Positions 35,064-40,617 of a stretch of DNA of 64,000 bases are shown in pieces. Numbering within the stretch: the first letter of the stretch is position 1; every line of letters starts with the position of its first letter. The position numbers and the translations under genes are program-made. This stretch comes from Deltaproteobacteria bacterium (GTDB lineage: Bacteria; Desulfobacterota; Syntrophia; Syntrophales; JACQWR01): positions 62,001 to 126,000 of the forward strand of contig JACQWR010000028.1 in assembly GCA_016209105.1 (NCBI GenBank), written 5' to 3'. The notes under the pieces were generated by a model. The model was not told the DNA's origin, ran no database searches, and saw only the letters and a program-made list of their open reading frames with translations.

Positions 35064-36143
35064 TCAGGTTTTCACCCGGAGAAACAGATACCCCGCGACG
35101 GCGGCGAAGATGATATTGGCGAGCCATGCCGAGAGGAACGGCGGGAGCGTACCCGAGCGTCCCAGGGACAGGGAGAAGGCGTAAACGAACCAGTAGGAAA
35201 AGCCGATTACGATTCCGACCCCCATGCTTTGGGTGAGCCCGCCGCTTCTTTCAGAGCGGAGCGAAAATGAGATACCGATTATCGCCAGGATAAGGCTTAC
35301 GCAGGGGAAGGCCGTCTTGCCGTGCATATCAACGAGGTAGCGTGACGCATCGTATCCCTCCTCTCGAATTTTATGAATGTATTTTTTTAATTCCAGATAA
35401 CCCATCTTTTCGGCATCTTCCTGGACGGCTTTAAAATCAGAAGGTTTTTCGGGCAGGGGCATCACCTTGGTTGCGAACCGGGAAAAGGAGGGAAAACCCT
35501 TGTTCTCGAAGCTGGTTACCAGCAGATTATAAAATACCCAACCGCCATCTTTCCACTCGGCCCGCTCCGCATCAATCCGCGTGGTGATATCCATGTTCTG
35601 GTTCAGATAATTGATGGTTATCCCCCGGATGATGTTATTGGTGGGATCAAACATCTTGAAGTTGTAAATGCCCTGTTTGCCTCGGTACCATATCTGATTC
35701 TGTTTGAACGTTCCTGCTTCCGCTTGTTTTTGAATCTCCACGAGACGTATGTATTCCGCTTTCCTGTTTGTATGGGGAGTGATGAATTCGCTGAAAAGGA
35801 AAGCAAGAATGCAGATCAGACCGGTGATTACGATTACGGGCAGTGATGTCCGGTAGAGACTGATGCCGTTTGCCTTCATCGCTACAATTTCATTGTGCCG
35901 GGACAAATTGCCGAACAGGATGAGAGCGGTTACGAGTACGGTGACTGGAATGGTTAAGGAAACGATCATGGGGATCTTGAAGAAAAAATAAGAAAACATC
36001 AGGGAAATCGTTGCCTTGTTGCTTAAGAGCATTCTGATTCTTCCGAAGAAATCCACAATGAGGGACAGGGATACGAACGATGACATGATGATCAGGAACA
36101 GCTTGCAGAACTCCCGGACGATGTATCTGTCGAGTACGGTCAT
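35064..36143 (-). CDS. lptG: LPS export permease LptG
   Basis: Inner-membrane subunit of the LptB2FG exporter that moves LPS from the inner membrane into the periplasmic bridge. 359 residues with three hydrophobic helices near the N-terminus (about 12-38, 55-75, 100-120), a periplasmic beta-jellyroll domain (about 130-265) and three C-terminal helices. The opening TVLDRYIVREF is LptG-like. Its ATG overlaps the lptF stop (ATGA). The ATPase gene lptB is not in the window. Confidence 0.9.
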   Translation of the reverse strand: MTVLDRYIVREFCKLFLIIMSSFVSLSLIVDFFGRIRMLLSNKATISLMFSYFFFKIPMIVSLTIPVTVLVTALILFGNLSRHNEIVAMKANGISLYRTSLPVIVITGLICILAFLFSEFITPHTNRKAEYIRLVEIQKQAEAGTFKQNQIWYRGKQGIYNFKMFDPTNNIIRGITINYLNQNMDITTRIDAERAEWKDGGWVFYNLLVTSFENKGFPSFSRFATKVMPLPEKPSDFKAVQEDAEKMGYLELKKYIHKIREEGYDASRYLVDMHGKTAFPCVSLILAIIGISFSLRSERSGGLTQSMGVGIVIGFSYWFVYAFSLSLGRSGTLPPFLSAWLANIIFAAVAGYLFLRVKT

Positions 36144-37318
36144 GACGGACGCCTCCCCTTTCCCCTGGTCAGTATTTTTAAAAGGTCGGCGCGGATTTTG
36201 AATTCGGGGAGCCGTTCTCTCGCCACGGCGATGAAAAGATAGACGCTAATGACTATAAAAATGATATTGGCCGCCCAAGCTCCCACAGCGGGAGAAATCC
36301 TGCCCGTTTCAGCCAAGGCTTCACCGCCCAACTGCAGGACGTAATAAATGAGGACGGTGAAAAGTCCTACCGTGAATCCCCTGGACTTTGTCGGACGATG
36401 AGCCCTGACGCCCAGCGCTATGCCGATAATGCCGAAAACCGCACAGGAGAAGGGGATGGAAAGCTTTTTGTTCAGTTCTATCGCTAGTTCCCTGGCCGCT
36501 GTTTCATCAAGATCACGACCCTTCATTTTCTCCACCAGTTCCCTGGCGGTCATTTCCGTACTTCCCTTTACCTTGATCTTTTCCCCGGCGGAGAGAGACG
36601 ATTCTATATCCAATTTGACGTCATAGGTGCTGAAATCCATCTTTCGGTAATGCTCCAGATTTGCATCCACCGTGTGGCTGCTGCCGTTTTCCAGTCTCAT
36701 GATTACGGCGAGCGATGCGGTATTGGCTACCAGGTACGCCTTTTTCGCAACGATTGTGCTCGGCTCCTTGCCGGTGTGTTCGTCATATACAAAAACGTCC
36801 TCCATGAAATCACCGTGGACGGGGACTTTTTCCGCGTACAGCAGGACCCCCCGGAAATCATCATTGAATACCTTTTCCTTGATGCCGATGGTTGCCTTTT
36901 GGGTGGAAAGCCTGAACAGGAGATTTTTTGTGGCAAAGTTTCCATAGGGAACGAGAAAGAAGCCGACGATAATTGTCATAACAAAGGCAAAGAGCGACAC
37001 CAGCGCAACGGGGTGCGATATCCGATAGAGACTTATCCCCGATGCCTTTAATACGGTAATCTCGTTATCACCGGAAAGTCTTCCCAGTCCCATGAGGATT
37101 GATATCAGGAGCGATATTGGCACGGTGAAGATGAGCAAGGATGGACTCAGGTAAAAGACGAGCCGGGCGATATCTATAACGCTAACGCCTTTGTTCACCA
37201 TCATATCCATAAGCTGGAGTATTTTCCCCATGAGCAGCACGAAGGTGAGCACGAAGAGAATCAGGAAAAAGGGAAAGGCGATCTCCTTCAGGATATATCT
37301 GTCTATCGTTTTAAACAT
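36140..37318 (-). CDS. lptF: LPS export permease LptF
   Basis: Partner of LptG, 392 residues and the same plan: N-terminal TM helices (FLILFVLTFVLLMGKIL first), a periplasmic domain of about 130-270, and C-terminal helices (GFTVGLFTVLIYYVLQLGGEAL). It opens MFKTIDRYILKEIAFPF, typical of YjgP/LptF. It is translationally coupled to lptG by a 4-bp overlap. The lipid A and heptose genes at 57-64 kb make the cargo of this exporter. Confidence 0.9.
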   Translation of the reverse strand: MFKTIDRYILKEIAFPFFLILFVLTFVLLMGKILQLMDMMVNKGVSVIDIARLVFYLSPSLLIFTVPISLLISILMGLGRLSGDNEITVLKASGISLYRISHPVALVSLFAFVMTIIVGFFLVPYGNFATKNLLFRLSTQKATIGIKEKVFNDDFRGVLLYAEKVPVHGDFMEDVFVYDEHTGKEPSTIVAKKAYLVANTASLAVIMRLENGSSHTVDANLEHYRKMDFSTYDVKLDIESSLSAGEKIKVKGSTEMTARELVEKMKGRDLDETAARELAIELNKKLSIPFSCAVFGIIGIALGVRAHRPTKSRGFTVGLFTVLIYYVLQLGGEALAETGRISPAVGAWAANIIFIVISVYLFIAVARERLPEFKIRADLLKILTRGKGRRPS

Positions 37319-37463: not shown

Positions 37464-38729
37464 TTACCAGACCAGAGAGAAGAATACCATGGCACCGGAA
37501 AGGAGTACGAGAACGATGACCGTCAACCAGGCAACGATATTCATCACCGGGCCGTTGACGTAATTGCCCATGATGCGCCTATCGTTTATGAGCAGGAGCA
37601 TAAAGATAAGGATGAAAGGCAGGAGCATGCCGTTAAGCACCTGTGAATAAAACATGATAGAAATGAGGGGTACGTTCGGCAGAAGAATGATCCCTGCGCC
37701 GAGAATGATCATGAGGGCATAGAGCCCGTAGAATTGCGGCGCCTCGGCAAATTTATGGTTCAGGCCTGATTCCCAGCCGAAGGCCTCGCACATAGTATAG
37801 GCTGCGGAAAGCGGCAGGATAGATGCGGCGAACAGGGACGCGTTTAAGAGGCCGAAGGCAAAGAGCCATGAAGCGTATTTTCCGGCGAGGGGCGCCAGGG
37901 CCAGAGCCGCTTCACTGGCACTTTCGATCCTGATGCCGGCAGGGAAGAGGGTTATGGCGCAGAGCAGAATAATGAAGAACGCCACGACATTTACGGTTAT
38001 GGAGCCGAGGATCACGTCCATCCGGGTGTACTGGTAGTCCTCGGATTTGAGGCCCTTGTCCACCACGGAAGACTGTAGGTAGAATTGCATCCAGGGAGCA
38101 ATGGTTGTCCCCACTACACCGAGCGTCATGGTGAGAAAAGGGGCGTCAAAACGCAGAGAAGGATTGATCACGGCCGTTTTTATCTGTCCCCAGTCCGGTT
38201 TTCCCATGAACCCGGAGATGATGTAAGACAGGTAAAAAAGGCAGGCCACAAGAAAGGCCTTTTCCACGGATTTATAGTTTCCCTTGACGATGAGCCACCA
38301 CACGAAAACTGCGGCCACGGGTACGGAAAGATACTTCGTTATGCCCACAATTTCCAGACTCGCGGCCACGCCGGCAAACTCGGAGATGGTATTGCCCAGG
38401 TTGGTGAGGAAAAGGACGATCATCAGGTAAAAAGTGATCCGGGCGCCGAAACGCTCCCGGATAAGGTCCGCAAGGCCTTTACCGGAAACCACACCCATGC
38501 GGGCGCACATCTCCTGGATGATGATCAGTGCCAGCGTAATGGGGATCAGCGTCCACAGAAGGGCGAGACCAAACTGGGCTCCTGCCAGGGAATAGGTGGT
38601 TATGCCGCCGGCATCATTGTCCACATTGGAGGTAATGATGCCCGGCCCAATGAGGGCAAACAGCAGGCCCGCTTTCCGGAACCACCGGTGAGAAAGATGT
38701 TTCAGTGTAGGGGAAAACTTTTCGGACAT
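37464..38729 (-). CDS. NRAMP-family divalent metal carrier with altered metal-site motifs
   Basis: Membrane carrier of 421 residues with about eleven hydrophobic helices and NRAMP landmarks (GPGIITSN in TM1, AGAQFG, EMCARMGVVSGKGLADLIRERFG). In classical Mn/Fe carriers TM1 reads DPGN and TM6 reads MPHN. Here the matching places read DAGG (residues 39-42) and APWM (211-214), so the coordinating Asn and Met and the TM6 His are absent. These changes resemble those described for NRAMP-related Mg2+ transporters (from memory). ATG 38729 follows GGTGA; a GTG at 38741 is also in frame. A soluble MgtE-like regulator gene lies just upstream. Confidence 0.85.
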   Translation of the reverse strand: MSEKFSPTLKHLSHRWFRKAGLLFALIGPGIITSNVDNDAGGITTYSLAGAQFGLALLWTLIPITLALIIIQEMCARMGVVSGKGLADLIRERFGARITFYLMIVLFLTNLGNTISEFAGVAASLEIVGITKYLSVPVAAVFVWWLIVKGNYKSVEKAFLVACLFYLSYIISGFMGKPDWGQIKTAVINPSLRFDAPFLTMTLGVVGTTIAPWMQFYLQSSVVDKGLKSEDYQYTRMDVILGSITVNVVAFFIILLCAITLFPAGIRIESASEAALALAPLAGKYASWLFAFGLLNASLFAASILPLSAAYTMCEAFGWESGLNHKFAEAPQFYGLYALMIILGAGIILLPNVPLISIMFYSQVLNGMLLPFILIFMLLLINDRRIMGNYVNGPVMNIVAWLTVIVLVLLSGAMVFFSLVW

Positions 38730-38858
38730 GAGCCATTTCACCGGGAGCGCATTCCGTAAGCACCGTTATGGGTGGCATTAGGAGACGCAATGTAAATTTG
38801 TGTTATTGCCGGGAAGCTATGCCCTCCGGGCGTAAAGCTTCACCTTCATTTCTCGCGG

Positions 38859-40121
38859 TTATTTCCCTAAATTTGGCGCAATCACCTCGAGCAGGTTTTT
38901 GAATACGATGACGCCTTGTATCCTGTTTTCTTCGTCCACCACGGGGATGGCCATAATGCCGTATTTGGCGAAATGACCGGCGATTTCTTCCTTCCCTGCA
39001 TCAATGTTTACGGAAACAACCCTTTTGTCCATCAGATCGGAAAGCGGCGTTTGGGGAGGAGCCACCAGCAATTCACGGAGACTGATCATCCCCATGAGAT
39101 GTTCTTCTCCGTCAATGACGTATAGGTAATAGATGAAATCCCGGTCCTCTGCTTCATGGCGAATGCTTTCCATGGCATCTGCCGTCATTGTGGAGGGCGC
39201 AAAACTGAGGAAGGAAGTCGTCATCATGCCGCCGGCCTTTTCTTCGTTATGGGACAACAGTTCCTTAACGTCGTCGGCGATGTCCTTTTCCATTTCCTTG
39301 AGGATCCCCTCTGCCCGCTCCGGGGGCAGGTCTCCCAGAAGGTCGGCCGCCTCGCTCAGCGACATTTCCTCGATGATGTCGGAGGCGGCGGCGAGATTCA
39401 GCTCCTCGATGAGACTTACCTGGATTTTGGGATCCGTTTCCTCAAGGGTTTCTGCAGCCGTCTCCGCGTCCAGTGATTGAAAGACGGCGCTTCTCTTATG
39501 AATATCCAAATCCTCAATGATATCGGCTAAGTCAGCGGGATGAAGCTGGGCCAAGCGGTCTTGGGCGATCTTCAGGCGGAGAAGATCAGGAGAGGAAAGC
39601 GGCTGTACAACATTCCAGGGTATCAATTGGTCGGAAAGAACATAGTCGAAAAATCCATGGAGGAAGGCGTCCATGGGTTTTTCCAAACCCACGCGTCGCA
39701 TAAGTCCCCGGAATCCGACATCAACATGAACCAGGTAGAGACAATTCGCGGTCTTCAGGAACTGAAGATCGTTTACCCGGCGAATCTTGGCGCCGTTCGT
39801 GTCCACCACCTGCTTATCGAGAAGCGTATCTTTGAGGAGGAGAGACTCGCGGGGCAAAAAAGGTTCGCGAAAATCATCCGGTACCGGGACAAGGGCGGTG
39901 AGCAGGGCGCCGATTCCGGTGATCTTGTTCCAGGGAAAGAGAACGGCAGTTTTGCGCTCCGAGGAAATCAGAGAGACATCCGTGACAACCGGGTAAGGCT
40001 CGGCGAGATTTGCCACCAGATCGACCGTTTTCCCTATAGGCCGGCCATCAGGATCAACGACCAGTTTCCCCAGCACCTGACTCAAAAATAAAAAAACCTG
40101 AGATTCGGAATTGAGCGCCAC
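38859..40121 (-). CDS. Soluble MgtE-N / tandem CBS protein (PRC-like N-terminus), no membrane domain
   Basis: 420 residues, all soluble. Residues 1 to about 160 hold two PRC-barrel-like repeats (GKLVVDPDGRPIGKTVDLV, DKQVVDTNGAKIRRVNDL). Residues about 190-295 are an MgtE N domain (LHPADLADIIEDLD, LEETDPKIQVSLIEELN, DLPPERAEGILKEM). Residues about 295-420 are two CBS domains (MTTSFLSFAPSTMTADAM, VVSVNIDAGKEEIAGHFAKYGIMAIPVVDEE). MgtE itself has five TM helices after the CBS pair; none is present here. GTG 40121 has GGGAGG eight bases before it. It probably senses Mg2+ and controls the carrier encoded downstream (inference). Confidence 0.85.
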   Translation of the reverse strand: MALNSESQVFLFLSQVLGKLVVDPDGRPIGKTVDLVANLAEPYPVVTDVSLISSERKTAVLFPWNKITGIGALLTALVPVPDDFREPFLPRESLLLKDTLLDKQVVDTNGAKIRRVNDLQFLKTANCLYLVHVDVGFRGLMRRVGLEKPMDAFLHGFFDYVLSDQLIPWNVVQPLSSPDLLRLKIAQDRLAQLHPADLADIIEDLDIHKRSAVFQSLDAETAAETLEETDPKIQVSLIEELNLAAASDIIEEMSLSEAADLLGDLPPERAEGILKEMEKDIADDVKELLSHNEEKAGGMMTTSFLSFAPSTMTADAMESIRHEAEDRDFIYYLYVIDGEEHLMGMISLRELLVAPPQTPLSDLMDKRVVSVNIDAGKEEIAGHFAKYGIMAIPVVDEENRIQGVIVFKNLLEVIAPNLGK

Positions 40122-40142
40122 AATGGCCACCTCCCAAGTTTT

Positions 40143-40410
40143 TTGCCTATAACACTATTGAGATTTTTTAAAAAGCTTTTTTTGTAATACGGTGCGGTGA
40201 AGCTTTGCCGGGAGCGTGTTACGCACATCACGCCCATAGAGCGGGCTTCAAATATTGCCAGATTGCGGATGATAAATAGGTGAGGGAGGGCGTTTCCATC
40301 GGCTGCTGCTGGGTAAGCGGCGAATTATTACCGCTCCACTATTTTGAGGTTCGAAGATTCTCTGCGTTTTTTTGCTGAGCAGTTCATTGTATCGTGGAAG
40401 GGTCTTTTTT
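40143..40410. other. Intergenic stretch with a decayed hairpin repeat
   Basis: No gene is seen. It holds an A/T-run palindrome AAAAAGCTTTTTT (about 40171-40183), scattered pieces of repeat family 2 (GGGCTTCAAATATTGC, GGGTAAGCGGCGAAT, GGTTCGAAGATTCT) and no convincing promoter for the - strand gene. Confidence 0.4.
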
Positions 40411-40413
40411 TAC

Positions 40414-40442
40414 TTGACATGCTGCGAGGTATTAATTATACA
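40414..40442 (+). promoter_or_regulatory. Strong sigma70 promoter of the pyr operon
   Basis: TTGACA (40414-40419), exact 17-nt spacer, TATACA (40437-40442), followed by the PyrR leader. Confidence 0.85.
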
Positions 40443-40455
40443 GGAGGAGCGGGGA

Positions 40456-40559
40456 CGATAAGTCCTTTTAATTTAATCCGAGAGATTGAAAAGGGACCGC
40501 AAATGAAAATTACGAATTCGTGGATGGGCCTTCTCACCTAAGCGTGGGAAGGCTTTTTT
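40456..40559 (+). promoter_or_regulatory. PyrR-type attenuator (binding hairpin and terminator)
   Basis: A hairpin GTCCTTTT...AATC-CGAGA-GATT...AAAAGGGAC (about 40462-40498) carries the purine loop CGAGAGATT expected for PyrR binding. It is followed by a terminator GCCTTCTCAC/GTGGGAAGGC with six Ts (40528-40559), just before pyrR. By the Bacillus model, UMP-bound PyrR holds the first hairpin so that the terminator forms. The antiterminator pairing was not worked out base by base. Confidence 0.8.
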
Positions 40560-40617
40560 GTTATGATGGCGGAGAAGGAAATCGGCGGCGGGAGCGGCCG
40601 GGGTGCTTTGTCCGTAG

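Follow-up and report, generated by a model that had tools for sequence, protein, structure and literature searches.

Gene content of the locus

The window, a 64,000-nt stretch of contig JACQWR010000028.1, comes from the 2.7-Mb draft genome (29 contigs) of a Syntrophales bacterium whose nearest named relatives are Syntrophaceae bacteria. Both open reading frames noticed in a sequence-only reading of this DNA are present. On the minus strand, a sensor-like gene comes first and a carrier gene follows 117 nt downstream:

37464-38741, minus strand: NRMT-type carrier (SLC11/NRAMP-related Mg2+ transporter), 425 aa, with DAGG in TM1 and TTIAPWM in TM6 (Pfam, phmmer, tree)
38742-38858, minus strand: gap of 117 nt between sensor and carrier genes, negative in the terminator scan
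38859-40121, minus strand: soluble sensor-like partner with two PRC-like domains, MgtE_N and a CBS pair, without TM helices (Pfam, AlphaFold2, Foldseek, hydropathy)
40131-40560, minus strand: 5' region of the pair, negative in the M-box scan

The sensor frame extends to a GTG at 40130 (423 aa), but the GTG at 40121, with GGGAGG 8 nt upstream of it, is the more likely start and matches the end coordinate given by the sequence-only reading. The two genes are likely co-transcribed, since they share a strand and a search of the minus strand found no intrinsic-terminator-like site in the 117-nt gap. The main-domain matches of both proteins have E-values between 1e-16 and 1e-120 and are not due to chance.

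Two LptF/LptG-type permease genes (35064-37318, minus strand) lie 145 nt downstream of the carrier on the same strand. On the other side, diverging from the sensor gene, a PyrR-binding leader precedes pyrR (40460-40562, plus strand; 48.2 bits where the gathering score is 54, E 1.5e-5), and three related loci (L006, L073 and L077) also have PyrR sites near their sensor-NRMT pair.

The carrier is an NRMT by sequence

The carrier matches Pfam Nramp with 344 bits and shares its fold and overall sequence family with canonical NRAMP/MntH proteins. In phmmer searches it is far closer to the Eggerthella lenta transporter EleNRMT (7qia; E 1.6e-120) than to the best canonical NRAMP (E 8e-30). When aligned to EleNRMT and Deinococcus MntH, the TM1 stretch N-D42-A-G-G45 falls on the DPGN site and the TM6 stretch G-T211-T-I-A214-P-W-M on the MPH site, and both DAGG and APWM are letter-identical to EleNRMT. 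These placements agree with the sequence-only reading, which had also seen that the coordinating Asn and Met are lost: G45 stands for the Asn of DPGN and A214 for the Met of MPH. In the Deinococcus transporter DraNramp, TM3 carries acidic residues that belong to the proton path; they align to F and T in the carrier, so that the TM3 acids of canonical proteins are absent here as they are in EleNRMT. EleNRMT is reported to be uncoupled from protons (PMC8806188), and the TM3 replacements are consistent with a similar loss of coupling in the window carrier.

The published NRMT signature consists of DxxG in TM1 and TxxA/T in TM6, replacing DxxN and A/CxxM (PMC8806188), and the carrier has D42, G45, T211 and A214 at these positions. 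In a tree of 68 carriers it lies on the same side as EleNRMT (support 91/88), apart from four canonical rows, with other Syntrophaceae carriers as its nearest relatives and long branches on the canonical side. Family, signature and tree agree with the assignment of the carrier to the NRMTs that the sequence-only reading had proposed. It is the only NRAMP-type protein in the genome, which also has one clear CorA and a ZnuA/MntA-type binding protein.

The gene pair was described earlier

Pairs of this kind have been in print since 2014 and are not new, contrary to how the sequence-only reading had presented the link between carrier and sensor. In the available part of their report, Shin et al. 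named the family NrmT, noted that most members adjoin a gene homologous to the N-terminal cytoplasmic domain of MgtE, and speculated that this neighbor exerts feedback regulation (PMC4072509). The pairs described there, Clostridium acetobutylicum Ca_c0685 and that of Acidobacterium capsulatum among them, have the same two genes and carry the same feedback proposal as made here; some were placed under M-box control, whereas the window pair has no M-box. PRC-like domains, membrane-anchored forms, MgtE replacement and ligand losses are not described in the part of that article available to us. EleNRMT was characterized without a partner, and the structural paper on it passes over the pairing: it never mentions CBS, and its mentions of MgtE concern MgtE itself (PMC8806188). 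What this survey adds is how nearly obligate the co-occurrence is, that the pair replaces MgtE, and that some sensors are membrane-anchored or have lost ligands.

The partner resembles the cytosolic region of MgtE

Pfam recognizes MgtE_N (88 bits), two CBS domains and a PRC-barrel (27.6 bits) in the sensor, giving PRC-like domains at about residues 12-79 and 96-177, MgtE_N at 185-297 and the CBS pair at 299-418. An AlphaFold2 model built from 61 sequences (mean pLDDT 83.8) has two small beta domains, a helical MgtE_N and a CBS pair, and its best Foldseek matches in the PDB are MgtE cytosolic domains (top match 2yvy, E 1.7e-22). No hydropathy window exceeds the TM threshold (maximum 1.42). The protein ends eight residues past the column of MgtE D250, lacking the five-helix channel domain, and scores 163 bits against TIGR00400, below the 233-bit cut-off. 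The sequence-only reading was thus right about MgtE_N, the two CBS domains and the missing membrane part, but had overlooked the first ~190 residues with their two PRC-like domains. Compared with MgtE (2yvx/2yvy), the sensor shares the MgtE_N and CBS fold and keeps several Mg2+/ATP ligands; unlike MgtE, it lacks both channel domain and plug helix, has two additional PRC-like domains, and has lost Mg4 and Mg5 ligands.

Sequence searches found no PDB relative for residues 1-184 (counted from GTG 40121), although PRC is recognized in 51 of 61 homologues. The second PRC-like domain is among the most conserved segments of the sensor, with nine positions (D105, Q107, D110, D121, D137, R145, R146, G148 and W172) 99-100% identical over 105 homologues, and for this reason probably has a function other than that of a linker.

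We mapped the ligand sites of Thermus thermophilus MgtE (PMC5882242, PMC5529423) onto an alignment of the same 105 sensors. The Mg6 ligand D95, which is D263 in the window sensor, is kept in all 105 and the Mg7 ligand E59 as E or D in 102; at the ATP site, Y170 is found in 100 and R187 as R or K in 100. The two Mg4 ligands, D91 and D247, covary (D/D in 69 sensors, S/N or S/S in 28), and the window sensor has the S/N combination (S259 for D91, N412 for D247). The loss of the Mg4 ligands was probably a single event in the window's branch, but it affects both halves of one site. At the Mg5 ligand D226 most sensors have N or G, and the window sensor has G, so that in MgtE numbering it keeps E59 and D95 and carries D91S, D226G and D247N. 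The plug-helix ligands E258 and D259 are absent from it, as the sensors stop 4-24 residues (in one case 42) past the D250 column. Because the window's branch lacks both ligands of one MgtE Mg2+ site, its Mg2+ set-point may differ from that of other sensors.

Sensor and NRMT co-occur across phyla

In a survey of 118 genomes of the window's phylum, with NRMTs called at 488 bits or more, 25 genomes have an NRMT and all 25 also hold the sensor, a count that, like the others in this section, is inflated by the relatedness of lineages. A full-length sensor adjoins the NRMT in 23 of them (at most 0.8 kb away; three tail-to-tail), and in the other two (G060 and G097) the two genes lie on different contigs, each with flanking sequence to spare. 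None of the 21 weaker, canonical-type matches lies immediately beside a sensor; one of them, in G027, is ~5 kb from it. The occurrence of tail-to-tail pairs argues that the pairing is more than shared transcription.

Scanning 84,980 species genomes, we obtained 80 sensor loci, which fall in Thermodesulfobacteriota, Nitrospirota, Chloroflexota, Acidobacteriota, Armatimonadota, Myxococcota, Actinomycetota and archaeal bins. An NRMT-type carrier adjoins the sensor at 75 of the 80 (two of the five exceptions lie at a contig edge), usually within ~100 nt and often with overlapping reading frames. Carriers at sensor loci read DAGG, DASG, DSGG or DPGG in TM1 and APWM, TPWM, TPWG or TPYM in TM6, and no DPGN/MPH carrier was seen at the 80 loci. 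The sensor lies upstream of 30 of the 30 best NRMTs in Actinomycetota, 11 of which are 77-97% identical to EleNRMT. In Acidobacteriota it lies within 1.5 kb at 19 of 30 loci examined, and the genomes of the other 11 hold it at a greater distance. The co-occurrence is therefore near-obligate, and as the sequence-only reading had anticipated, the sensor goes with NRMT-type and not with DPGN-type carriers in the phylum, at the 80 loci and in Actinomycetota alike. The congruence of the sensor and carrier trees is only modest (Spearman 0.34, permutation maximum 0.19), and we give it little weight as evidence.

We saw no direct fusion of NRMT and sensor; the long open frames at GC-rich loci seem to be genes whose frame stays open upstream of the start. 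One canonical NRAMP with an extended C-terminus (L146:9099-11237) was rejected as an NRAMP-CBS candidate, being a fusion of NRAMP with the universal stress protein UspA; an NRMT-sensor pair lies ~3 kb away. Acidobacteriota repeatedly show canonical-type NRAMPs whose open frames span 630-780 aa. One genome (G005; loci L061 and L151), in which no full-length sensor was found, encodes a carrier with only 34% identity to the window NRMT and ADDDPSG in the TM1 region, which may belong to another NRAMP-related group.

Pairing this close to universal points to a sensor protein that throttles its carrier. It is also stronger than would be expected of a dispensable brake, and could instead indicate that high flux in the native host depends on the partner as an activator or assembly factor. 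We regard this as highly doubtful: the C. acetobutylicum and E. lenta NRMTs are active alone (PMC4072509, in its available part; PMC8806188), and these domains serve in MgtE to close the channel (PMC5882242).

The pair replaces full-length MgtE

Across the surveyed phylum, an MgtE-type protein is present in 2 of the 25 genomes with an NRMT and in 69 of the 93 without one (counts tallied by hand from the survey tables; Fisher p 1.6e-9, which is too small, as the species are related). Closer to independent than this p-value suggests are five swaps within families (f2, f8, f17, f41 and f47), in each of which one genome has the pair without MgtE and one has MgtE without the pair. The window genome fits the pattern, as no full-length MgtE was found in it. 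The sensor-NRMT pair thus replaces full-length MgtE across genomes, a pattern that favors Mg2+ over Mn2+ as the metal concerned. M-boxes (RF00380) lie upstream of the sensor at five loci (L017, L021, L023, L111 and L127), and three of the six genomes of the phylum with an M-box have one at a sensor-NRMT pair. The window's 5' region has none at the gathering or a relaxed threshold and holds only the PyrR site of the divergent pyrR; a further 13 scanned loci, ten of them among the window's closest relatives, have none either.

The carrier could instead be mainly an importer of Mn2+ or of divalent metals in general, with a partner sensing Mn2+ or the overall divalent load. In the available part of the 2014 report, A. 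capsulatum NrmT, which has an MgtE-like neighbor, fully rescued a mutant in Mn2+ transport, whereas rescue of a mutant in Mg2+ uptake required millimolar Mg2+; co-expression of the partner added no rescue (PMC4072509). EleNRMT, active alone, also moves Mn2+ in vitro (PMC8806188); the window genome encodes no second NRAMP, and its sensor has lost both Mg4 ligands as well as D226 of Mg5. We nevertheless consider this reading unlikely, given the replacement of MgtE, the M-boxes at related loci and binding-site letters exactly as in EleNRMT, and given that the ZnuA/MntA-type binding protein could serve Mn2+ uptake. The A. capsulatum result calls for caution, as a partner alone is no proof of an Mg2+ substrate; because that carrier rescued Mn2+ better than Mg2+, we hold Mg2+ to be the likely, not the proved, substrate of the window carrier.

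Some sensors are anchored in the membrane

Among Actinomycetota loci that we call Coriobacteriia-type, a class inferred from similarity to EleNRMT (L202-L212 and L213-L231), the sensor carries TM helices. In Eggerthella-type genomes the sensor beside the NRMT ends in a single TM helix; carriers 77-97% identical to EleNRMT therefore have a single-TM sensor next door, whereas the window sensor is soluble. At the other loci the sensor runs on as EEEHAEDLQIAG, a linker resembling the plug helix of MgtE, which bears E258-D259, and then for ~200 residues with about five TM helices. This part has no Pfam MgtE-channel match and only a weak similarity to the MgtE channel (HHalign global P 8e-5, probability 33%); its kinship with the channel is suggested by collinearity and the plug-helix-like linker more than by the sequence match. 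The simplest reading is that the anchored sensors descend from a full MgtE whose pore has decayed or been lost. Near-obligate pairing, MgtE replacement and the retained TM helices together argue that the partner is probably an MgtE without its channel, the sensor of which now serves an NRMT.

The TM helices place these sensors at the membrane, which bears on whether sensor and carrier meet at all. The partner might never touch the carrier and be an Mg2+ or adenylate sensor acting elsewhere, in expression, metal delivery or buffering, and co-inherited through Mg2+ homeostasis. Such a role would accommodate the two phylum genomes and the roughly nine in Acidobacteriota with distant genes, the carriers that work without a partner (PMC4072509, in its available part) and the strong conservation of the second PRC-like domain. 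The usual spacing within ~100 nt with often overlapping frames, the membrane placement in Coriobacteriia-type genomes and the precedent of direct gating in MgtE (PMC5882242) weigh against it, and we think it somewhat unlikely.

A putative sensor-gated Mg2+ uptake system

The carrier's family and motif and the sensor's domains are established at the sequence level, as are the near-obligate co-occurrence of the two, MgtE replacement and the anchored versions. We consider it probable, with real room for doubt, that the pair is an Mg2+ uptake system in which a stand-alone sensor of MgtE origin throttles the NRMT. Hydrated Mg2+ would enter down the membrane potential through an uncoupled NRMT, and the partner would be a cytosolic sensor derived from MgtE but without its channel. 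Once cytosolic Mg2+ suffices, the sensor would bind Mg2+ (and ATP) at the MgtE_N/CBS interface, dock on the inner face of the carrier and reduce uptake, in much the way that the cytosolic MgtE_N/CBS domains close the MgtE channel itself (PMC5882242). Gating by a separate sensor is plausible, and we infer both the physical contact and inhibition as the sign of regulation. Against this reading as a whole we count the loss of Mg4 and Mg5 ligands, the missing plug helix, the lack of an M-box in the window and the CorA in the genome, as well as, from the available part of the 2014 report, the Mn2+ preference and inert partner of A. capsulatum and the partner-free function of the C. acetobutylicum NrmTs (PMC4072509).

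More tentatively, and leaning against it at present, we suggest that NRMTs may be obligate two-component Mg2+ systems, in which the sensor of a former MgtE moved to an unrelated carrier of the LeuT fold while its pore became a non-conducting anchor in some Coriobacteriia, was reduced to one helix in Eggerthella and was lost in most bacteria. If so, the EleNRMT of the solved structure would be only half of the natural complex. The survey results add weight to the question of gating, and co-occurrence, MgtE replacement and the anchored versions make it testable with EleNRMT, which has already been purified and solved. If gating is borne out, the sensor domain of one transporter would have found a second use as an independent regulatory subunit of another transporter with an unlike fold.
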